Shown: positions 3,475 through 31,255 of the stretch, one piece after another
Layout of the letters: every line of letters begins with the position of its first letter
Numbering within the stretch: the first letter of the stretch is position 1
Virus record (IMG/VR): IMGVR_UViG_3300028864_000014
Location: 124,001-188,000 of that record
Reading direction: 5' to 3' (one strand)
Source: a virus
DNA length: 64,000 nt
Notes under the pieces: generated by a model
The model's input: only the letters and a program-made list of their open reading frames with translations
Databases searched by the model: none
What the model was told of the DNA's origin: nothing
Translations under genes and position numbers: made by a program

Positions 3475-4194
3475 ATGACAGCATTAGAAGTATATAATTT
3501 TTTAAAAAATTCAGGAAAATTTTCAGATTTAATTTTTGGAGAACCAAATTCTAACGTAAGATATTCTCCATTTGCAGAAATAAAGTATGTTATAAACAAA
3601 TCAGAATATATTATAGAAGTCACTAATGAATATCAATACTCTTTTTTTAGTTGTCATCCATTTACAGATATTAAAGGATTAGAATTTGTTATTCTTAATG
3701 ATTTTTGTGAAGAAAAAACAATTATATCTAATTTCAAAAGATTATTAAAAAAAATAATAAAATTGGATATTTACATCCAAAATAGAGAAATTGATAAAAT
3801 TGTGATAAAAGATATAATAAATAATCATATTAAAAAAACATATAATTTAAATGTTGATTTGACATACGGATATTTAAGTAAATTATTCAAAAATTACATG
3901 ACTATTAAATTTTCACCAAAAAATATCACGTCAAGAATAAAAAGAAAGCCATCATACCACCAAGTATCATATAATAAAAAATTATTTGATACTTCATTAG
4001 AACATTATTCGAAATATGATATTTGGGTATTTTTTAATAATAATAACTCTCATGTCGCATTAAATTTATATTATGACGGAGAATCAAAAAAATTATTATC
4101 AATTGCAAAAAATGAATCATATCAGCCTTTTAGCAATGATATAACTAAAATAATAAGAAAAGAAAAACTTATTAAACTTATGAATGATGACTGA
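3475..4194 (+). CDS. hypothetical RK-tagged protein
   Basis: 239 aa of unknown function, rich in aromatic and Lys residues. The C-terminus (I-I-R-K-E-K-L-I-K-L-M) is an RK tag. It is one of the longest proteins with this ending, which shows that the tag is not confined to tiny ORFs. It overlaps the next gene by 11 nt and has its own promoter. Confidence 0.75.
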   Translation: MTALEVYNFLKNSGKFSDLIFGEPNSNVRYSPFAEIKYVINKSEYIIEVTNEYQYSFFSCHPFTDIKGLEFVILNDFCEEKTIISNFKRLLKKIIKLDIYIQNREIDKIVIKDIINNHIKKTYNLNVDLTYGYLSKLFKNYMTIKFSPKNITSRIKRKPSYHQVSYNKKLFDTSLEHYSKYDIWVFFNNNNSHVALNLYYDGESKKLLSIAKNESYQPFSNDITKIIRKEKLIKLMNDD

Positions 4195-12146: not shown

Positions 12147-12482
12147 ATGAATAAAAATTATGATGATGGAAATTGGAATTGGAAATATGAATGCATATAT
12201 GCAAATGAGACAAATGATCCAAATGATTATTATTATGTAATAGAATTTGATTCTTCAAATGATTATGATTTCAACCCAGTTGATATTACATGTTTTTATA
12301 AACCTCTTGAAAATGTATTAGAAATACACAAAGAAAATACATTAATTAATTTTTTTGTTGAAAATTTTTCTGATATTAAGAATATACTAAATCCAATGAT
12401 TAAATCATATAACGCAATCACATATCCAATATACGTAAGCAAAAAATCAATAAGAAGAGATAAATTAAATAATCTATCATGA
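12147..12482 (+). CDS. hypothetical RK-tagged protein
   Basis: 111 aa, acidic, Asn/Asp/Tyr-rich, with a degenerate RK tag at the C-terminus (I-R-R-D-K-L-N-N-L-S). The stop overlaps the next ATG by 4 nt. Function unknown. Confidence 0.65.
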   Translation: MNKNYDDGNWNWKYECIYANETNDPNDYYYVIEFDSSNDYDFNPVDITCFYKPLENVLEIHKENTLINFFVENFSDIKNILNPMIKSYNAITYPIYVSKKSIRRDKLNNLS

Positions 12483-12709
12483 CATCAAAAGATATATGCA
12501 ATAGAATATTATTCATTGATAATAGAATCTTCGGATTGAAAATACTTATGAATCGTTATTCACTTAGTAATGATGAATATTTGGAATCATATAATAGCAA
12601 AGTTGAATTTGAAGAGGAAATAAAAAAACTTGAAAAAAACTTAAAATTAAATAGAATAAGAAAAGAAAAATTAAAAGAATTAAATGACATCAAAAGATAT
12701 TTACAATAG
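12479..12709 (+). CDS. small RK-tagged protein, paralogue A of a pair
   Basis: 76 aa. It begins M-T-S-K-D-I-C-N-R-I and is a clear paralogue of the next gene. The C-terminal region is a charged helix ending in R-K-E-K-L-K-E-L-N. Its last codons also encode, in another frame, the start of the paralogue, so the pair overlaps by 26 nt. This looks like a tandem duplication. Confidence 0.7.
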   Translation: MTSKDICNRILFIDNRIFGLKILMNRYSLSNDEYLESYNSKVEFEEEIKKLEKNLKLNRIRKEKLKELNDIKRYLQ

Positions 12710-12899
12710 AATAATTAAAATAGAAACTTCATTATTCGGACTTAAAATTATTGTCAATAGCAATTATGGAATTAATTGTAATCATATAGAAGCTATTAAT
12801 GAAATTATTGAGTTAAAAAGAGAATTGTATATATTGAAAGATAAATTAATTAATATTAATATAAGAAAAGAAAAATTAAAAAATCTCAATAACATATGA
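12684..12899 (+). CDS. small RK-tagged protein, paralogue B of a pair
   Basis: 71 aa, beginning M-T-S-K-D-I-Y-N-R-I and ending R-K-E-K-L-K-N-L-N-N-I, with the shared block F-G-L-K-I in the first third. Likely a coiled helical protein. The stop overlaps the next start by 4 nt. Confidence 0.7.
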   Translation: MTSKDIYNRIIKIETSLFGLKIIVNSNYGINCNHIEAINEIIELKRELYILKDKLININIRKEKLKNLNNI

Positions 12900-13269: not shown

Positions 13270-13301
13270 TTTGGTAAATTGAAAACTTTTTTGTACTTTT
13301 G
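13270..13301 (+). promoter_or_regulatory. strong host-type promoter for leader/tRNA unit
   Basis: TTTGG (13270-13274), 19 nt, TACTTTTG (13294-13301) matches the Bacteroidota consensus. It is the only promoter I can see upstream of the tRNAs; the predicted start site is near 13308. A leader ORF and a terminator lie between it and the first tRNA. Confidence 0.75.
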
Positions 13302-13355
13302 TACTACATAATAAAAATAGAAAAAAATCACATTTTTAAGATAATATATACTGAT

Positions 13356-13448
13356 ATGAAAAACTACAATAACATAATGAACTTGCTACTCTCAAACCTA
13401 TTATTACAGAATAATCGGACTGAGAATATTATGTCATATCTATTGTAA
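13356..13448 (+). CDS. leucine-rich leader peptide
   Basis: A 30-codon ORF with 8 leucines: Leu10, 11, 12 (TTG CTA CTC, positions 13383-13391), Leu15, 16, 17 (CTA TTA TTA, 13398-13406) and Leu29, 30. The product therefore has two triple-Leu runs, drawn from four different Leu codons, including CTA and CTC that look uncommon in this AT-rich genome. It has its own promoter and is followed 22 nt later by a terminator. This is the layout of an amino-acid attenuator leader (compare leuL, trpL). Whether it also acts as a peptide is unknown. Confidence 0.72.
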   Translation: MKNYNNIMNLLLSNLLLQNNRTENIMSYLL

Positions 13449-13504
13449 CAAATAATATAAGCATATTTAAAAACCTCAGTCATTTATTTGACTGAGGTTT
13501 TTTC
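13390..13504 (+). promoter_or_regulatory. candidate leucine attenuator in front of tRNA-Leu array
   Basis: Three mutually exclusive pairings can be drawn. 1:2 hairpin: TCTCA, CC and ATTATT (13390-13405) with AATAAT, GG and TGAGA (13410-13425), inside the leader ORF. 2:3 antiterminator: GACTGAG (13418-13424) with CTCAGTC (13475-13481). 3:4 terminator: 12 perfect bp, 13471-13482 with 13489-13500, then T6. A ribosome stalled at Leu codons 10-12 would break 1:2, free region 2 for region 3 and so allow readthrough into the tRNAs. Pairings are seen in the sequence; the regulation is inferred. Confidence 0.65.
13471..13504 (+). terminator. conditional terminator before tRNA array
   Basis: AAACCTCAGTCA pairs perfectly with TGACTGAGGTTT around a 6-nt loop, followed by six T. 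It stands 16 nt before the first tRNA with no promoter in between, so it must be read through for the tRNAs to be made from the visible promoter. Confidence 0.85.
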
Positions 13505-13518
13505 TTTTATAATAAAAT

Positions 13519-13603
13519 GCTCTGATGGTGGAATTGGCGATACACGAAGGTCTTAAAAACCTTTACATTAGAAACGATGCGGGTCCGAATCCCGCTCAGA
13601 GTA
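13519..13603 (+). tRNA. tRNA-Leu (TAA)
   Basis: 85 nt. Acceptor GCTCTGA/TCAGAGT with a G1-U72 pair; D-loop with GG; anticodon stem AAGGT/ACCTT and loop CTTAAAA (anticodon 13554-13556 TAA); 15-nt variable region; T arm GCGGG/CCCGC with loop TCCGAAT; discriminator A73. The 3' CCA is not encoded (CAA follows). It reads UUA, the commonest Leu codon here by eye. Confidence 0.9.
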
Positions 13604-13608
13604 CAAAT

Positions 13609-13695
13609 GTTCCTGTGATGAAATTGGTAGCACATGCAAGACTTAAAATTTTGTGGATAGTAATATCCGTGTCGGTTCAAGTCCGACCAGGAATA
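13609..13695 (+). tRNA. tRNA-Leu (TAA), second gene
   Basis: 87 nt. Acceptor GTTCCTG/CAGGAAT (G1-U72), anticodon stem CAAGA/TTTTG with loop CTTAAAA (anticodon TAA), a proper long variable arm (GGATA/TATCC), T arm GTCGG/CCGAC and A73. Same anticodon as the first gene but a clearly different body, so it is not a recent duplicate. Confidence 0.9.
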
Positions 13696-13705
13696 CAAAA
13701 AAAAT

Positions 13706-13791
13706 GCTGATGTGGCGAAATGAATACGCGGCAGTCTAAGAAACTGTTTCTGAACAAAGTAAGAATGTGGGTTCAAGTCCCACCATCAGTA
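13706..13791 (+). tRNA. tRNA-Leu (AAG)
   Basis: 86 nt. Acceptor GCTGATG/CATCAGT (G1-U72), anticodon stem GCAGT/ACTGT, loop CTAAGAA (anticodon AAG), variable arm TTCT/AGAA, T arm GTGGG/CCCAC, A73. Two oddities: A34 is rare in bacterial Leu tRNAs (normally GAG), and the D-loop lacks the usual G18-G19 pair. It may be partly degenerate or need A34 modification. Confidence 0.75.
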
Positions 13792-13798
13792 CAATAAT

Positions 13799-13872
13799 GA
13801 CTGAGTGATGTAATTGGTAACCATGTCATCCTCAAAAGGTGAATTTTGTGGGTCCGAATCCCATCTCAGTTA
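13799..13872 (+). tRNA. tRNA with CAA (Leu) anticodon, short variable loop
   Basis: 74 nt. Acceptor GACTGAG/CTCAGTT (G1-U72), D-stem ATG/CAT, anticodon stem TCATC/GGTGA with loop CTCAAAA (anticodon CAA, codon UUG), 5-nt variable loop ATTTT, T arm GTGGG/CCCAT, A73. Bacterial tRNA-Leu is normally class II with a long variable arm; this one is class I in shape. What amino acid it accepts is therefore uncertain. Confidence 0.75.
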
Positions 13873-13880
13873 CAAAAAAT

Positions 13881-13970
13881 GTTCCAGTGGCGAAACTTGG
13901 TTGAGACGCGTTAGATTTAGGATCTAATACAGTTAATGACACACTGCGGGTCCAAATCCCGCCTGGAATA
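13881..13970 (+). tRNA. tRNA-Leu (TAG)
   Basis: 90 nt. Acceptor GTTCCAG/CTGGAAT (G1-U72), D-stem GCG/CGC with GG in the loop, anticodon stem TTAGA/TCTAA with loop TTTAGGA (anticodon TAG, codon CUA), 18-nt variable arm, T arm GCGGG/CCCGC, A73. It is the last member of the array; a strong terminator follows. Confidence 0.88.
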
Positions 13971-13974
13971 CAAA

Positions 13975-14014
13975 GTGTGAGTCAATTTTATTATAAAAAT
14001 TGACTCACACTTTT
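13975..14014. terminator. bidirectional terminator after tRNA array
   Basis: A 15-bp perfect stem (GTGTGAGTCAATTTT with its complement, 13975-13989 and 13996-14010) is followed by TTTT on the plus strand. It separates the tRNA unit from the convergent minus-strand operon. Confidence 0.85.
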
Positions 14015-14021
14015 AAATATA

Positions 14022-14450
14022 TCATAGATTAAATTTCTTTGTAGTATCTACTATATTTTTTCTATATAGATAATCTTTCATTTCTTCGTCTGTTAGGTGT
14101 CTAATATATCCTGTTGGAACCCATGCAAAGAAATCGTGTTCATCTATATCAGATAGTGAATTTCTTAATGCATACCCATAATACCATTCATAATTAACTA
14201 GCACATATTCTTTACTATAATCATTATCAGTAAATTTGTCAGTCGTCTTTTTTTCATTATGTCTATTATATAATACTGAGTCTAATTTTTCAATATATTC
14301 TTTATCTAATTTAACTATATCACCATCATAAACACCAGTATGAAATTCTGGCCTTTTTATATAAAAAATCTCACCATATGTTTCATCTTTTGTTGGTTCT
14401 CTTTGCCATATATCTTTTGATTCATTTATGAATTGGTCATATTTTTTCAT
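14022..14450 (-). CDS. N-tag/KFN-tagged hypothetical protein
   Basis: 142 aa. The N-terminus M-K-K-Y-D-Q-F-I-N-E-S closely resembles the T4 capsid-targeting peptide and contains I-N-E, a gp21-type cleavage site. The C-terminus is D-T-T-K-K-F-N-L. It is the last gene of a five-gene minus-strand operon and is followed by a terminator, so its KFN tag is not needed for coupling to another gene. The body is aromatic-rich and unrecognised. Confidence 0.75.
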   Translation of the reverse strand: MKKYDQFINESKDIWQREPTKDETYGEIFYIKRPEFHTGVYDGDIVKLDKEYIEKLDSVLYNRHNEKKTTDKFTDNDYSKEYVLVNYEWYYGYALRNSLSDIDEHDFFAWVPTGYIRHLTDEEMKDYLYRKNIVDTTKKFNL

Positions 14451-14878
14451 ATATTAAATTTATTTGCGTCTTTTTTTATTTTAAATAATTCTTCTGCACC
14501 TTTTAATCCAATTTTCAAAAATTCATCTAATGGAATAATAACATTATCATGACTACGAATATCAAATGATCTCATTTTAACTAAATCTATTGTATCTCTT
14601 AGATTTTCTGAATCACTCCAACTTTCATATACTTTAATATACCATATCCATTTGATATCAGAATCTTTATAATATTCAATATCGGATTTATTTATCAATA
14701 AATTTTTTATAGTATGTTGATCTAAATTTGCATATTTATTAAATTCATCAAATGCTTCATATTGTTTTTCTTCTGTTACATTTTCTAATAATATAAAAAA
14801 ATTAAAATCCATACCATTAGATTTGCCTATTTTTCCATATGCTCTATTTTCATTAATATATTGATCAAAACTTTTCAT
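14447..14878 (-). CDS. N-tag/KFN-tagged hypothetical protein
   Basis: 143 aa. N-terminus M-K-S-F-D-Q-Y-I-N-E-N (with I-N-E), C-terminus D-A-N-K-F-N-I. It overlaps both operon neighbours by 4 nt. The body has alternating helices and a W-I-W-Y-I-K-V strand; no catalytic motif recognised. Confidence 0.75.
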   Translation of the reverse strand: MKSFDQYINENRAYGKIGKSNGMDFNFFILLENVTEEKQYEAFDEFNKYANLDQHTIKNLLINKSDIEYYKDSDIKWIWYIKVYESWSDSENLRDTIDLVKMRSFDIRSHDNVIIPLDEFLKIGLKGAEELFKIKKDANKFNI

Positions 14879-15321
14879 AGATTAAATTTTTCTGAATTTT
14901 TTATTGATAGATATTTTTCATATTGTTCTGTATATTCAGACATTATCATATCCATGTAAACTTTGGTATTTTTAATATAGAATAAAAAATCCTCGTCATT
15001 ATCGTCTTTTAAGTTCCAATTTGACCCTGCTTCTATTAATATTTTAATGATATTAATATTCTTTCTCATAGCAGCATAATGTAATGCTGTTCTTTCATAG
15101 GCATCTTGATAGTTAACATCAGCACCTTTTTCAATTAAATATTTAACTATATCTATTCTATTATTATCTGCAGCTAATATTAATGATGAATATCCATATT
15201 TATTTATATTATTCACATCAACTTTTTTATTTTCTATGAATTCTATTACTACATTCAAATCTCCTTCACGACAAGCATCAGATAATTTTTCATATGATTC
15301 AAACATTTTTATATATTTCAC
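14875..15321 (-). CDS. ankyrin-repeat protein with N-tag and KFN tag
   Basis: 148 aa. Starts M-K-Y-I-K-M-F-E-S-Y-E and ends N-S-E-K-F-N-L. Between them are about three ankyrin repeats (for example G-Y-S-S-L-I-L-A-A-D-N and T-A-L-H-Y-A-A at regular ~33-residue spacing). Ankyrin proteins bind partner proteins. If the tags do direct virion packaging, this could be an injected host-binding effector; that is inference. 4-nt overlaps on both sides. Confidence 0.85.
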   Translation of the reverse strand: MKYIKMFESYEKLSDACREGDLNVVIEFIENKKVDVNNINKYGYSSLILAADNNRIDIVKYLIEKGADVNYQDAYERTALHYAAMRKNINIIKILIEAGSNWNLKDDNDEDFLFYIKNTKVYMDMIMSEYTEQYEKYLSIKNSEKFNL

Positions 15322-15935
15322 ACCGTAGTTTTATTTTTTAATTTTGAAATTGCTTTTTTCATTATATCAATTGTCAAATTACTAATTTCCATTATATTAA
15401 AATCTCCTTCAATTTCTGTGTTATGAGGATGTTCAATTTTAATTGACACTTTACTTAATGGTTTGCTTCCAATTACTTTTTGAGAATCATCTACTAATAT
15501 ATCAGCATACTTCCATTTATCCATTGATGAGTTAGCAAAAATAATATCATCATATTTGAATCCATAATGATCTAACCATTTTTTAGCTGATTCTTTTGAT
15601 TCTTCTGTAGGTTGTTTAGTTACAATATTTAAAGTAAATCCATAAGTTTTTACGAAGTCGTATATATTATTAATTGTATCAACTGCTCCTTTATATGGTT
15701 GTGCAATATCAAAAACTTCGGATTTTTTATTATCAAACCAAGTTTTAGATGATTCACCATTATAGTCCATTGTTTCATACCAATGCCAATTTTGATCCTG
15801 AGTTATTTCTTTATCTGGAAAGTATTTTTTATATAAGGTGTTGTATGCATTGACAAAATCACATATTGTACCATCAATATCAATTCCAATTGTTATTTTA
15901 TTTGTAAATGTTTCAAACATTTTTAGATGTTTCAT
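15318..15935 (-). CDS. HAD-family 5'(3')-deoxyribonucleotidase-like protein
   Basis: 205 aa. After an N-tag (M-K-H-L-K-M-F-E-T-F) comes HAD motif I, G-I-D-I-D-G-T-I (Asp19, Asp21), then a cap region with W-H-W-Y, motif II near I-V-T-K-Q-P and motif IV in I-L-V-D-D-S. This is the NT5C-like pattern: dephosphorylation of deoxynucleoside monophosphates. It lacks the KFN tag though its operon neighbours have it. A role in nucleotide pool control fits a phage. Confidence 0.8.
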   Translation of the reverse strand: MKHLKMFETFTNKITIGIDIDGTICDFVNAYNTLYKKYFPDKEITQDQNWHWYETMDYNGESSKTWFDNKKSEVFDIAQPYKGAVDTINNIYDFVKTYGFTLNIVTKQPTEESKESAKKWLDHYGFKYDDIIFANSSMDKWKYADILVDDSQKVIGSKPLSKVSIKIEHPHNTEIEGDFNIMEISNLTIDIMKKAISKLKNKTTV

Positions 15936-26704: not shown

Positions 26705-26737
26705 AAAAATCCTGATTTCTCAGGATTTTTTTTTATT
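26702..26737. terminator. bidirectional terminator
   Basis: AAAAAATCCTGA-TTTC-TCAGGATTTTTTTTT between convergent genes; strong stem with T run on both strands. Confidence 0.85.
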
Positions 26738-28241
26738 TATCAATAAATAATTTATTATCAGGAGGCCATTTTATATGTGGTGCTTCTTGAGTATCAGTAA
26801 TCACCCATAATATTTTATCAAAATACTTAGGAATACTAAATTTAAATTTGTCTGGAGCAGTACCCATAGCATCAGTAAAATATATAACAAATGATGGAAC
26901 AGTTCCTTTAGATATTAAATTTTTCTCTATCCATTGAAACGGTGGGATAAAACTTGTACCACCACCACCTTTTGCTTTAAAGTGTTTACCAAGAATTTCT
27001 TTAAATTTACTTTCATTCATTGAATCACCACTCTTTGTTTTAAGATTAATCCTTTCAATTCCTGCCACTGCGTCATCACACCAAATAATTATAGCTTCTT
27101 CTATTTTCTTTGTACCGAAAATACCATAAATTTCAGTTGCAAATCTACCAAGTGTCTCATCACCAATAGAACCTGATGTATCAATACATAATACGACAGT
27201 TCTAAATCCACTATCTTTAGGATATTTTAATCCTGGTAAATACAATGGGTCATCTTGTCCAATAAATCTTTTATTAAAATAACCATATTTAGGATTACTT
27301 GAAAAACATTTATTCATAAATTTAACCAATGCTGATCTCCAATTAACTTTTGGTTTTCCAATTTTATTAAACCATCTATTTAATGATTGTGATCCAGTTC
27401 CTTGATTATTACTTTTTGCATTATTTAATATTTGTCCCCACTTTTTAGCCAAATCCCCTGGATCTTTAATATCTGAAAGTTCATCACTACCTTCAAATAA
27501 CGTTGCACCTTTTTTGTCATCTAAACTACCTGGCGCTCTTAAATCTCCTACTCCTGGAACTGAATTGTCTGGTTGTCCTTGTCCAGGCTGTCCTTGTCCA
27601 GGTTGTCCTTGTCCAGGTTGTCCTTGTCCAGGCTGTCCTTGTCCAGGCTGTCCTTGTCCAGGCTGTCCCTGTCCAGGTTGTCCCTGTCCAGGTTTTCCTG
27701 GTTTTTTTGGTTTTGCATTTTCTTCTTTTTCAAGAACTACATAAATTTGTTCAGCACTCATATCACGATATTTTTCATCCAATAAAATATTAGATGGTAC
27801 TCTCAATATATCAGGCTTACTGGTTGCATTATCTGGTGTTTCTTTACTCATATCAGATATTTGAAGATTAATAGCATAATCAGCAGCTTGATTCCACAAA
27901 TCATGATTTCTATCCCCTTGTCTTATAAAGTGAAGATTCGCATTGTGCATAACTTCGTGTATCAACACAAATGCTACTTCTTCAGTATTTTTTAATACAT
28001 TATTAACAAAATTCGTATTATATAAAATATTTTTACCATCAGTTGCCATAGTGTCTATTCCACTTCCAGGTGCAGCTTCCGCAATATTCAATTGAAAAAA
28101 CAAATCTGCAAAGAAATTATAGTAAGCCATCACAGATGTTAATGCTGCTCTGACTTTACCTTTAGCTAATTTATTTAATTTTGGATCAGTAAAATCTTCA
28201 TTTATACTCAAAAAATTAAATGCATTGAATTTTTTTATCAT
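26733..28241 (-). CDS. VWA-like/metallopeptidase-like protein (MoxR partner)
   Basis: 502 aa. N-tag M-I-K-K-F-N-A-F-N-F-L-S-I-N-E-D (I-N-E site). An N-terminal metallopeptidase-like domain has H-E-V-M-H (95-99). A linker of about nine G-Q-G-Q-P repeats (~180-225) follows, then a VWA-like domain with MIDAS motif D-T-S-G-S and F-T-D-A. This is the domain order of bacterial VWA-like/DUF2201-type proteins that pair with MoxR AAA+ ATPases; such pairs act as chaperone-like systems that insert metals or remodel targets. Two MoxR ATPases are encoded just upstream in the same operon. No KFN tag. Confidence 0.85.
   Translation of the reverse strand: MIKKFNAFNFLSINEDFTDPKLNKLAKGKVRAALTSVMAYYNFFADLFFQLNIAEAAPGSGIDTMATDGKNILYNTNFVNNVLKNTEEVAFVLIHEVMHNANLHFIRQGDRNHDLWNQAADYAINLQISDMSKETPDNATSKPDILRVPSNILLDEKYRDMSAEQIYVVLEKEENAKPKKPGKPGQGQPGQGQPGQGQPGQGQPGQGQPGQGQPGQGQPGQGQPDNSVPGVGDLRAPGSLDDKKGATLFEGSDELSDIKDPGDLAKKWGQILNNAKSNNQGTGSQSLNRWFNKIGKPKVNWRSALVKFMNKCFSSNPKYGYFNKRFIGQDDPLYLPGLKYPKDSGFRTVVLCIDTSGSIGDETLGRFATEIYGIFGTKKIEEAIIIWCDDAVAGIERINLKTKSGDSMNESKFKEILGKHFKAKGGGGTSFIPPFQWIEKNLISKGTVPSFVIYFTDAMGTAPDKFKFSIPKYFDKILWVITDTQEAPHIKWPPDNKLFIDK
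27567..27705 (-). repeat. 15-bp tandem repeat encoding GQGQP
   Basis: Nine or so 15-bp units (plus strand TGTCCTTGTCCAGG) lie in the VWA protein linker. It is much more GC-rich than its surroundings and gives long artificial antisense ORFs. Confidence 0.9.
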
Positions 28242-28262
28242 TTTAAAATTTTATTTTTTTAA

Positions 28263-29798
28263 TTATTCTCCTGCCATAGTTTTTTGTAGTACTACATGCC
28301 ATCTTTTAGCAAAATCTAACCACACGTCTTGATATTCAGTTTTAATATATGGATGAGCTTTTACAAAATAAGATGCTATTGCAACAATTGCTTCATTTTC
28401 TTTTCCTCTTGTAGCAAATTCATATACATTTTTAACTTCTTCTTTTGAAATATGTTTACCTTGTTTAAATGTGGCAATTGCAATAGAGCAAGCTCTAATT
28501 TGATCTTGTCTAGTTGGCCATTTAACATTTTTAGATCTTTCATTACCATCATATATATCTTGAATATCTTTTTCACTGAAGAATTCCTGTAATTTCATAT
28601 AATTAACAAAATCCATAGCTGCTTCTAATCCTACATATTTAGTATAAATATTTTGAATTTCTGGATATGATAATTTATTAGCCCAATCTTCACTTCTTTC
28701 ATTAAATTCATCTTGTGATGCCATTTCCCATGTTCTTGGAGATGCCCAACCTGGACTTTTAGATTCCTTATCCAATCTATGAAAGTAATTAGGATGATAT
28801 TGTAAATATGAAATAAGAAACGGATTTATATCTTTTCTTGATAATGCATATTTAACCCAATCATCAACAGATGGAGAATAATTAACATGAGCAAAACGAT
28901 TCCATAAAATTGGATCATCAGTCAAATCAGTAGTATCGATATCATCTTTTCTATTACCTGCTGCAATAATAATCCACCTTGGAGGTAAATCATAATCACC
29001 ATGACTACCACTCAATGCCAATGCCAATGATGCACTAAGAACCATTTGTGGTGCTCTATTCATTTCATCAAAAAACATTATACCACCTTTTCCATTTCCA
29101 TCACTTGTAGGAAATATAGCAGGTAATTTAGATACTGTTTTATCATTTTCTATTTTAGGAACACCTCTAAAGTCAGTAGGCTCAATTTGTGATAAATGCC
29201 ATTCTTGAACAACAATATCTAAATCTTTAGCAACTTGATGTAAAATCTCAGTTTTACCAATTCCAGGAGCACCCCAAATAAACAATGCATGAGTTTTTTT
29301 TCTAGCAAATTCTGATCCTTTATCATAATTCTCTTGCTCATGTTTTCCTGCTCTATGTAAATTCATATTATAAACTCTTTTAACCCTTTCTCTAAGCTTC
29401 TCTACATTAACATTTCTCATCACTTCTTCATCACCACTTGGATAATTCAAAGTTACCATTGCTTCATCTACACTATTTCCTTTTTCAATTTTTTCACCTT
29501 TATCATTGAATCTTGAACGTATTTCAGATTCAATTTCTTCTGCTGTTGGAGATTTATCACCTTTTAAATTATTAAGATAATTGTCAGGAATAATTATTTC
29601 AACAACATCTCTAGTTTTTCCATCCTCATCTACATAGGTTGGAATTTCACCTTTATCTTTTAAATATTTTGAATAATACAACCATGCATTTTTACCAAAT
29701 TTGGATTTGAAATAACTATTTAACTTGTTCCACGCATTTGTTAATATATTCTCATTTAATTTATATTCTTCAGAATAACTATCGTATTTCTTTATCAT
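28263..29798 (-). CDS. MoxR-type AAA+ ATPase
   Basis: 511 aa. N-tag M-I-K-K-Y-D-S-Y-S-E-E-Y-K-L-N-E-N (L-N-E site), a ~150-residue N-terminal region, then AAA+ core: Walker A G-A-P-G-I-G-K-T (176-183), Walker B with I-M-F-F-D-E-M-N-R-A-P, sensor A-A-G-N-R and L-W-N-R-F arginine region, as in MoxR. Unlike simple cellular MoxR it has a long N-terminal domain. Paralogue of the next gene and partner of the VWA protein. Confidence 0.87.
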   Translation of the reverse strand: MIKKYDSYSEEYKLNENILTNAWNKLNSYFKSKFGKNAWLYYSKYLKDKGEIPTYVDEDGKTRDVVEIIIPDNYLNNLKGDKSPTAEEIESEIRSRFNDKGEKIEKGNSVDEAMVTLNYPSGDEEVMRNVNVEKLRERVKRVYNMNLHRAGKHEQENYDKGSEFARKKTHALFIWGAPGIGKTEILHQVAKDLDIVVQEWHLSQIEPTDFRGVPKIENDKTVSKLPAIFPTSDGNGKGGIMFFDEMNRAPQMVLSASLALALSGSHGDYDLPPRWIIIAAGNRKDDIDTTDLTDDPILWNRFAHVNYSPSVDDWVKYALSRKDINPFLISYLQYHPNYFHRLDKESKSPGWASPRTWEMASQDEFNERSEDWANKLSYPEIQNIYTKYVGLEAAMDFVNYMKLQEFFSEKDIQDIYDGNERSKNVKWPTRQDQIRACSIAIATFKQGKHISKEEVKNVYEFATRGKENEAIVAIASYFVKAHPYIKTEYQDVWLDFAKRWHVVLQKTMAGE

Positions 29799-29818
29799 TT
29801 TATTATATTTTTATTTTT

Positions 29819-31255
29819 TTATAACATATCGTTTTCACGAGCATCTCCTCTTTTTGATTTACCTTCTGGATTTTTCTTTCTTTCTTCCTCACGTTCTTTT
29901 TCATCTAATTTTTTAAGAAAATTTACAAATGCAACTGCACTAGCGTATCCAACAAAATCTTCATATATATCTTTTACTTCTTCATATGATAATCTATTTT
30001 TCCAATCAAATCCTCTTTCAAAATAATCTTCTTCTGATGCCATTTCCCAAGTTCTTGGTGATGTCCAATTAGGAGCTTGATCAACAGTTTTTAATCTGTG
30101 ATAATATTCTGGATTTTCTTTAATAAATTGTATAAGTTTAGGATTAATTGATTTTATGTTTTTTGCATATCCAATCCAATCTGAAGGTTTTGGAGAAAAA
30201 TTGATATGTTGAAATCTATTCCATAAAATTTTATCTTCTGTTAAATCACCTGAACTCAAATCAGAACCTCTATTACCTGCTGCAATAACTATCCAATGTG
30301 GAGGTAATTCATAACTACCATGTTTACCACTTAATGCTAATGACAATGAAGCATCAAGAACCATTTGTGGTGCTCTATTCATTTCGTCAAAAAACATAAT
30401 ACCACCTTTTCCATTTTTTCCATCACTTGTAGGAAATATTGTTGGTAACTTCCAAACTGTTCTTTCATCTTTTGGATCATCAGTTCCCATTACATTTTCA
30501 ATTCTAGGAATACCTCTAAAGTCAGTTGGTTCAATTTGTGATAGATGCCATTCAATTACCGCAATTTCTAGTTCTCTCGCAACTTGATGCAAAATTTCAG
30601 TTTTACCAATTCCAGGAGCACCCCAAATAAATATTGCATTAGTCTTTCTTCTTACATATTCTGTTCCTTTATCACCTTCTGCTTGATGTCTTCCTGCCCT
30701 AAGTGAATTCATATTATAAAGTTTAATTACTTCATGTTTTAATTCAGCAACATCTTCATTACGTACAGTTGGATCTGGATGATCTAATCCAACAAAATCT
30801 TCATTATCATCAAGAACTCCTTCATTTAAATATAAATTTTTTAAGCTTTCTTTGACTTTTTCCAATTCTTCAATTTCATCATTAACTACTTTTTCCTCTT
30901 CATCATTATTTCCAGGAGTTTCATCAGATCCTTTAAGTCCAGGAATTTCTTCTGTTTTCTCATCTTCTACTGTTTCTAATTCTGTTTCTACTCCTGACTC
31001 TTCAATTTCTTTATCAGAAGGTAAATCTGATGTACTCGCATACGCTGTTGGACATATAAATTCTATGCCTCTTGGTAATTTTCCCTTTTTCTGTAAATAC
31101 AAAGCATAATATACCCAAGCATGTTTCCCAAAATGTTGTTTGAAGAATCCAACAACCTTGTTTAAAATATCAGAAAATACATTTTCATTTATTTTTACAC
31201 TTTCATTTTCTCTATATTCTTTAGAAAAATGATCATAATTTTTTAATGTTTTCAT
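29819..31255 (-). CDS. MoxR-type AAA+ ATPase, paralogue
   Basis: 478 aa. N-tag M-K-T-L-K-N-Y-D-H-F-S-K-E-Y, then V-K-I-N-E-N (I-N-E). Acidic insert at ~80-135, Walker A G-A-P-G-I-G-K-T (212-219), Walker B in I-M-F-F-D-E-M-N. The core is highly similar to the preceding ATPase, including H-L-S-Q-I-E-P-T-D-F-R-G. A hetero-ring of the two paralogues is possible. First ATPase of the minus operon, behind a TTTTATATATAAAAACA motif. Confidence 0.87.
   Translation of the reverse strand: MKTLKNYDHFSKEYRENESVKINENVFSDILNKVVGFFKQHFGKHAWVYYALYLQKKGKLPRGIEFICPTAYASTSDLPSDKEIEESGVETELETVEDEKTEEIPGLKGSDETPGNNDEEEKVVNDEIEELEKVKESLKNLYLNEGVLDDNEDFVGLDHPDPTVRNEDVAELKHEVIKLYNMNSLRAGRHQAEGDKGTEYVRRKTNAIFIWGAPGIGKTEILHQVARELEIAVIEWHLSQIEPTDFRGIPRIENVMGTDDPKDERTVWKLPTIFPTSDGKNGKGGIMFFDEMNRAPQMVLDASLSLALSGKHGSYELPPHWIVIAAGNRGSDLSSGDLTEDKILWNRFQHINFSPKPSDWIGYAKNIKSINPKLIQFIKENPEYYHRLKTVDQAPNWTSPRTWEMASEEDYFERGFDWKNRLSYEEVKDIYEDFVGYASAVAFVNFLKKLDEKEREEERKKNPEGKSKRGDARENDML

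Follow-up and report, generated by a model that had tools for sequence, protein, structure and literature searches.

A segment of a 235,318-bp virus record most likely acts as a ribosome-mediated transcription attenuator that governs the supply of leucine tRNAs, and the same device, with codons matched to the tRNAs behind it, stands before many other tRNA arrays of related phages; we put the probability of this reading at roughly 0.9. The window, that is, the whole stretch of DNA that was analysed, consists of bases 124001-188000 (64 kb) of this record, and the genome has a GC content of 24%. Attenuation had been suggested in an initial annotation of the window, and our results support it: relatives keep the layout, segments 2 and 3 of the leader RNA co-vary, and no host-type promoter fits at 13503-13518.

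Organization of the leucine leader and its tRNA array

The host-type promoter (13270-13301, + strand) is of the Bacteroidota type, with TTTG at 13270-13273, a 20-nt spacer, and TACTTTTG at 13294-13301. Its extended pattern, TTTGGTARATTRAAAACTTNNTNNTANNTTTG, has a single match in the 64-kb window, as compared to 0.00 matches expected by chance, and a like promoter is found ahead of the leaders at many other tRNA arrays. Transcription would start near 13307-13309 (about 13308). A candidate TTGACT/TATAAT pair near 13488/13508 was rejected because of its 14-nt spacer and the lack of a Bacteroidota -7 box.

Behind the promoter lies a conserved 5' element, GAAAAAAATCACATTTTT..AATATATA (13320-13350, +), a close variant of which, GAAAAAAATGACTTTTTT..ATATATA, precedes the leaders of many arrays. 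The succession of GAAAAAAATGACTTTTTT and AATATATA is seen at 13320-13350 of the window and also on the minus strand at position 3827-3865 of the record (L010). Across sites, the element is mostly downstream and sometimes upstream of the host-type promoter, and given this variable position, it may serve as a promoter specific to the phage or as a separate signal. Among the matches listed, a tRNA lies within 800 nt downstream of the element in 18 of 70 viral contigs versus 3 of 118 bacterial contigs, and no leader-type arrangement was found by eye behind the element among the bacterial-genome matches listed (118 contigs).

The leader ORF, MKNYNNIMNLLLSNLLLQNNRTENIMSYLL, occupies 13356-13448 (+) and has the 30 codons and eight leucine codons noted in the initial annotation (three CTA, two TTG, two TTA, and one CTC). 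Leucine accounts for 8 of the 29 residues after Met, against 2.0 expected from the protein composition of the phage (p=5e-4), and the rare codons CTA and CTC make up 4 of the 8, versus 9% of leucine codons in the phage. A strong terminator within 60 nt after a short ORF occurs eight times in 235 kb, and the window leader is the only one of these cases with more than four leucines. By itself, this leucine-richness is weak, moderately unusual evidence and suggestive only; because, in a genome of 24% GC, 90 of the 1103 short ORFs starting with ATG are equally rich in leucine, the excess alone is not decisive and relatives are needed as proof.

The leader ORF is followed by an intrinsic terminator, hairpin 3:4 with a U run (13469-13502, +; 14 pairs, about -20 kcal/mol), which ends 16 nt ahead of the first tRNA, as had been described. 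By reading of the sequence, no host-type promoter fits 13503-13518, between terminator and tRNAs, where the initial annotation had regarded a separate promoter as a point against attenuation. The array itself holds five tRNAs with leucine anticodons (UAA, UAA, AAG, CAA, and UAG), all on the + strand, in agreement with the earlier count. ARAGORN and the Rfam model RF00005 both recovered tRNA-Leu(UAA) at 13519-13604 (51.6 bits) and again at 13609-13696 (49.1 bits), tRNA-Leu(AAG) at 13706-13792 (52.6 bits), a tRNA with the Leu anticodon CAA, 75 nt long and with a short variable region, at 13799-13873 (51.4 bits), and tRNA-Leu(UAG) at 13881-13971 (47.4 bits). There are no tRNAs beyond these five in the 64-kb window. 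T-box, Leu_leader, and other Rfam leaders gave no match, as RF00005 (tRNA) was the only family to reach its gathering score in the window. An inverted repeat read directly in the sequence, AAGTGTGAGTCAATTTT..AAAATTGACTCACACTT (13974-14013, +), lies 3' of the array and is the probable end of the transcript.

Two features of the tRNAs are recorded here as observations. The tRNA at 13799-13873 seemingly lacks the long variable arm typical of tRNA-Leu. Several array tRNAs have anticodons that begin with A, namely Leu AAG (13706-13792) and, in relatives and the L010 array, Val AAC, Thr AGT, and Arg ACG, so inosine at position 34 is possibly needed.

Neighbouring genes

Four consecutive proteins encoded at 14022-15935 (-) have similar N-termini (MKKYDQFINES, MKSFDQYINEN, MKYIKMFES, and MKHLKMFETF) and differ in their bodies; the shared start is possibly a common targeting or packaging signal. 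One of the four, at 14875-15321 (-), looks like an ankyrin-repeat protein. The tandem small proteins at 12479-12709 and 12684-12899 have the common start MTSKDI(C/Y)NRI and appear to have arisen by recent duplication. Farther along, at 26733-31255 (-), a VWA/metallopeptidase-like protein (DUF2201) adjoins two related AAA ATPases, an arrangement that resembles MoxR/VWA modules.

Alternative pairings in the leader RNA

Folding reproduced the three pairings of the initial annotation. The protector hairpin 1:2 was recovered at exactly 13390-13425 (+), as part of the predicted fold, with -9.8 kcal/mol. The exclusive 2:3 pairing joins GACTGAG (segment 2, 13418-13424, +), toward the 3' end of the leader ORF, with its exact complement CTCAGTC (segment 3, 13475-13481, +), in the 5' arm of the terminator, and the 3:4 terminator was recovered as well. 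For the whole leader, the predicted fold has -39.1 kcal/mol, with a z of -5.55 against its own shuffles, and for the 2:3 pairing of the window, comparison with shuffled ORFs gave p-values from 0.002 to 0.045 according to the script used.

We modelled the probability of the 2:3 pairing in the window at the stage before segment 4 is made. It was 0.98 with a ribosome on the leucine codons, 0.10 with a ribosome at the stop codon, and 0.00 without a ribosome; in the folding model, these values complete the truth table expected of a leader-peptide attenuator. As long as segment 4 is absent, 2:3 is the predicted minimum-energy fold of the window wherever the ribosome stands on codons 10 to 17. Once segment 4 is there, the terminator, at -20 kcal/mol, beats 2:3 at -12.6 kcal/mol, and because of this greater stability antitermination must be kinetic. 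The choice between pairings in the trp leader is likewise kinetic.

Leaders and arrays in related phages

A near-identity search among annotated phages gave no match to the region. The region is the same in three IMG/VR contigs (L001-L003), which are identical to one another over 821 bases; because these copies are identical, they add no evidence of co-variation. IMG/VR contigs with the same terminator were discarded as a source of co-variation, all being identical copies, and variation in the window-type leader is found in L111 only (nine leucines, three tRNA-Leu).

With distant blastn, the promoter region of the leader was matched in the huge phages LR756502 and LR756501, and it was matched again in the phage's own record, at position 3827-3865, ahead of a second tRNA array. 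Each of these sites is followed by a short ORF, a terminator, and then a tRNA array. The second array of the same phage comprises Arg, Pro, Ala, Gly, Gly, Val, Val, Thr, Thr, Thr, and Arg tRNAs, and its leader is MNNISRHITTGTATTTATTPVTGGRPVAYLGDNNLS.

By scanning IMG/VR with the shared 5' element and promoter, searching whole records for tRNAs, and reading the arrays, we collected 36 leader/array pairs; the related jumbo and huge phages that carry them are IMG/VR contigs, Mahaphages of 634-735 kb, and Lak-C1. This census is incomplete, since arrays were partly collected via the 5' element or promoter; the leader-array match is not biased by this way of collecting. Phages larger than 634 kb belong to the Mahaphage clade, whose predicted hosts are Bacteroidetes (PMC7162821).

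The layout of leader ORF, terminator, and array, which the initial annotation had proposed to look for in related phages, is retained in them. A Leu-only array recurs in the 735-kb phage LR756501, with five Leu tRNAs in a context unrelated to the window and the leader MNNILHINLLNSLCLLGIKLIG. Gln-only arrays follow the leaders MKNLSNNIMIQQQQQITV and MNNNISNMIQQQQQTYV, which carry QQQQQ. Larger sets are served by composite leaders: MRNVSKHSKSFKSFWSHRSGSDFVCLLNKSK precedes a Lys/Phe/Ser/Trp/His array, MNNINNIYSIYRNCNINYNMEEICIDMINDYINDDENNVGRTG a Glu/Asn/Met/Cys/Ile/Tyr array, MNFRIINMIQEQMQQIQNLIGGTISY a Met/Gln/Ile/Glu array, MKTVNTNIAIVEIAVIGGAEEGVMGVYCLNSKTS a Glu/Ala/Ile/Val/Gly array, and MKTLNMTYGMHPVCGMVHMFPCGGGRPMSILECLKFSCMLQS the His/Pro/Arg/Cys/Met array of Prevotella phage Lak-C1. 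Smaller combinations are Leu/Ser/Cys with MKAMILSLCLSLSLSLQKLGVVGVCKVIS, Pro/Asp/Gln with MKTINVNIAPVNPQPQDQDPMRKANYVFMIS, and His/Phe with MKNLTNIFWHFHFKATRRLGMENLYVS. A terminator comes after every leader listed, and in one case (L131) the leader sits behind a lone tRNA-Met. In LR756501 (735 kb), five leader-bearing arrays, {A,G,P,R,T,V}, {L}, {F,H,K,S,W}, {C,D,I,N,Y}, and {M,Q,E,I}, together account for all 20 amino acids.

Leader control is not universal, even within these huge phages: a recognisable matched leader is absent at three arrays of LR756504 and Lak-C1 (L147, L151, and L157). Matched leaders are also absent from five control phages with tRNA arrays (crAss001, cr126_1, Wc4, ESCO40, and PA1C); in crAss001 and cr126_1, a Bacteroidota promoter lies about 30 nt before the first tRNA with nothing between.

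A stretch inside the Lys/Phe/Trp/Ser/His array of L028 (5121-5864) is 67% identical to one at the Met/Gln/Ile/Glu array of LR756501 (L122, about 172844-173572). This stretch is gene-sized, so some protein genes may travel with tRNA arrays.

Each leader fits its own array

The amino acids of each leader fit its own array, and this is a property of the whole family rather than a peculiarity of leucine. Over the 36 pairs, the leader contained 160 of the 161 amino acids that its own array serves, as compared to 297 of 559 non-served ones (a background of 53%). The summed fit of 32 pairs was 122.4, while permutation gave a mean of 0.0, an sd of 11.7, and a maximum of 58.3 (0 of 200,000 permutations). 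Several leaders are homologous and the leader/array pairs are not all independent, so we also give tests at the level of families. The summed fit of 17 family representatives was 70.7 against a permutation maximum of 43.5 (0/200,000), the true order was the best of 720 for six leader/array classes, and it was the best of 120 for the five arrays within LR756501 (exact test, 1/120). Tryptophan is present in the leaders of all seven arrays with tRNA-Trp versus 1 of 25 without it, and histidine in all eight with tRNA-His versus 2 of 24 without.

At the codon level, leader codons are decoded by the tRNAs of their array just slightly better than random synonymous codons (482 versus 465, sd 5.6), and exact anticodon matches between leader and array are at chance (263 versus 265), which places the match at the amino-acid level.

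Segments 2 and 3 change together

In most families, 7 to 13 nt toward the 3' end or in the stop region of the leader ORF are complementary to the 5' arm of the terminator. Compensating change had been put forward in the initial annotation as a test, and the two segments indeed change together between leader families: besides GACTGAG/CTCAGTC, the family-specific pairs include AGTTTGGA/TCCAAACT, GGTTCGGATTT/AAATCCGAACC, TTCGGGGTT/AACCCCGAA, TGATTGGG/CCCAATCA, and TGAGGGTTTTGAT/ATCAAAACCCTCA. The complementarity had p<0.05 against shuffles in 22 of 28 non-redundant leaders (Fisher 1.5e-21), and the sum for own pairings was 530, versus 378 for swapped ones (sd 15, maximum 436; 20,000 permutations). 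In 28 of 30 leaders, the part upstream of segment 2 has a higher density of cognate codons than the part behind it (p=2e-5).

Modelling across the family established that a stalled ribosome is predicted to permit the 2:3 pairing. The protector hairpin 1:2 is clear in the window; in the model it is absent for about half of the families, and it is often weak. Some families are predicted to form 2:3 also with a ribosome at the stop codon or without a ribosome, and since 2:3 appears there irrespective of stalling, the protector hairpin is not general.

Proposed mechanism and its trigger

We propose that RNA polymerase starts near 13308 at the host-type promoter and that a ribosome enters the leader ORF. 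When charged tRNA-Leu is ample, the ribosome would pass the leucine codons 10-12 and 15-17 and reach the stop codon; segment 2 would then be covered or held in the 1:2 hairpin, 3:4 would form, and transcription would terminate at 13502, before the tRNAs. When tRNA-Leu is missing or uncharged, the ribosome would stall on a leucine codon and cover segment 1, so that 2:3 could pair before segment 4 is made and the polymerase would read into the five-tRNA array. Readthrough would thus depend on the cognate tRNA, and the new tRNAs would let the leader be translated again and so shut the switch, a feedback loop. In the related phages, the tRNA complement would be split into separately sensed groups, and the phage probably senses which tRNAs run short in infection and makes just those. 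Because the ribosome is the sensor, uncharged, cleaved, and missing tRNAs should elicit the same response.

For the jumbo and huge Bacteroidota phages of several clades, a wider reading is about evenly balanced: a codon-resolved tRNA homeostat, with one attenuator per array and all 20 amino acids covered in the 735-kb phage, whose main purpose is to detect and replace tRNAs lost to host defence or takeover. In the best explanation, the host of the window phage is itself a member of the Bacteroidota.

The chances are likewise even that the same mechanism answers to another trigger: amino-acid starvation, destruction of tRNAs by anticodon nucleases or their decay after host shut-off, and heavy late translation demand would all stall the leader ribosome. 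Starvation is what the attenuators of biosynthesis operons sense, but extra tRNA genes are no cure for a missing amino acid, which argues against it as the main purpose. Heavy late demand is consistent with the finding that, in one phage, the arrays add up to a set for all 20 amino acids. In favour of tRNA destruction, several leaders take in rare codons as well as the full set of isoacceptors for an amino acid, and phage tRNAs rescue phages from tRNA-cutting defences (PMC10264068, PMC11555353). As tRNA genes are useless against a lack of amino acid, we infer that the attenuator more plausibly answers to tRNA loss, through defence nucleases or decay following host shut-off.

Three further explanations would do without matched sensing. 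The terminator could merely insulate the array or trim leader RNA in a fixed ratio, with the tRNAs made by readthrough or from another promoter and the leader codons incidental. Its strength and thermodynamic preference fit this idea, which we nevertheless consider improbable: the leader-array match is far above chance, segment 2 lies in the 3' part of the leaders, and just 16 nt without a host-type promoter separate terminator and tRNA. It is similarly improbable that the leader reports on translation capacity as a whole, with readthrough altered whenever a ribosome is stalled or absent; leaders with many amino acids would react to many shortages, but the leader-array match would then be needless, and leaders for a single amino acid (Leu, Gln) exist. 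Least plausible of all is a role of the leader peptides as small functional proteins, with a composition that is coincidental or structural, for although the sequence is conserved within a family (e.g., SKHSSSSKSFKFWF), composition shifts fully with the array, from QQQQQ to LLLSNLLL to TTGTATTTATTPVTGG, a common motif is absent, and length ranges from 17 to 43 residues.

Comparison with known systems

Phage tRNA arrays, such as those of T5, SP15, and others, are thought to replace host tRNAs lost to defence (PMC10264068, PMC11555353), and the tRNA-Tyr of SP15 was described as driven by a strong promoter (PMC10264068/PMC11555353). The leaders described here likewise precede phage tRNA arrays; attenuation by a leader goes unmentioned in these two papers, in which the string 'attenuat' is absent, as it is from the Mahaphage paper (PMC7162821). 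In Flavobacterium, also of the Bacteroidota, leader-peptide attenuation has been inferred from transcriptome evidence ahead of amino-acid biosynthesis operons (PMC9723704); those leaders belong to the same host phylum, but control chromosomal biosynthesis genes rather than tRNAs. We found no description of attenuation of phage tRNAs, tRNA operons, or tRNA arrays in the open-access literature searched, which agrees with the earlier remark that no phage attenuator had been described for tRNAs of the amino acid it senses. The phage leaders are a variant of ribosome-mediated attenuation, for whose target, wiring, and scale we found no description in that literature.

Why phages carry tRNAs has been debated for fifty years, and a matched leader would state in the phage's own genome what the phage measures and when its tRNAs are wanted, namely once their charged forms run short. 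The codon-compensation and anti-defence hypotheses become directly testable, because each leader is a ready-made reporter for one tRNA set, and matched leaders thereby offer a route to the trigger that each phage fears. The leaders could also serve as simple natural sensors of tRNA depletion in Bacteroidota. Attenuation would be extended from amino-acid enzymes to the tRNA pool, with the genetic code partitioned into regulons in a virus.

In T-box leaders, the charging of a specific tRNA is sensed and controls a terminator; these leaders bind the uncharged tRNA directly and have no leader ORF. A cleaved or absent tRNA gives no signal through a T-box, whereas it could do so through a phage leader. 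The pheST attenuator of E. coli also uses cognate codons to feed back on tRNA charging; it controls phenylalanyl-tRNA synthetase in one bacterial operon, whereas the phage leaders would control tRNA genes. The trp, his, leu, thr, and ilvGMEDA attenuators of enterobacteria comprise a short leader ORF with many regulatory codons, 1:2, 2:3, and 3:4 pairings, and an intrinsic terminator before the genes, and the ilvGMEDA leader combines several amino acids. The phage leaders follow the same logic of leader ORF, alternative pairings, and terminator. In contrast to the biosynthesis attenuators, their regulated product would be the sensed tRNA rather than amino-acid enzymes, and they are found in phages, where several leaders per genome divide the genetic code and a single leader covers up to seven amino acids.
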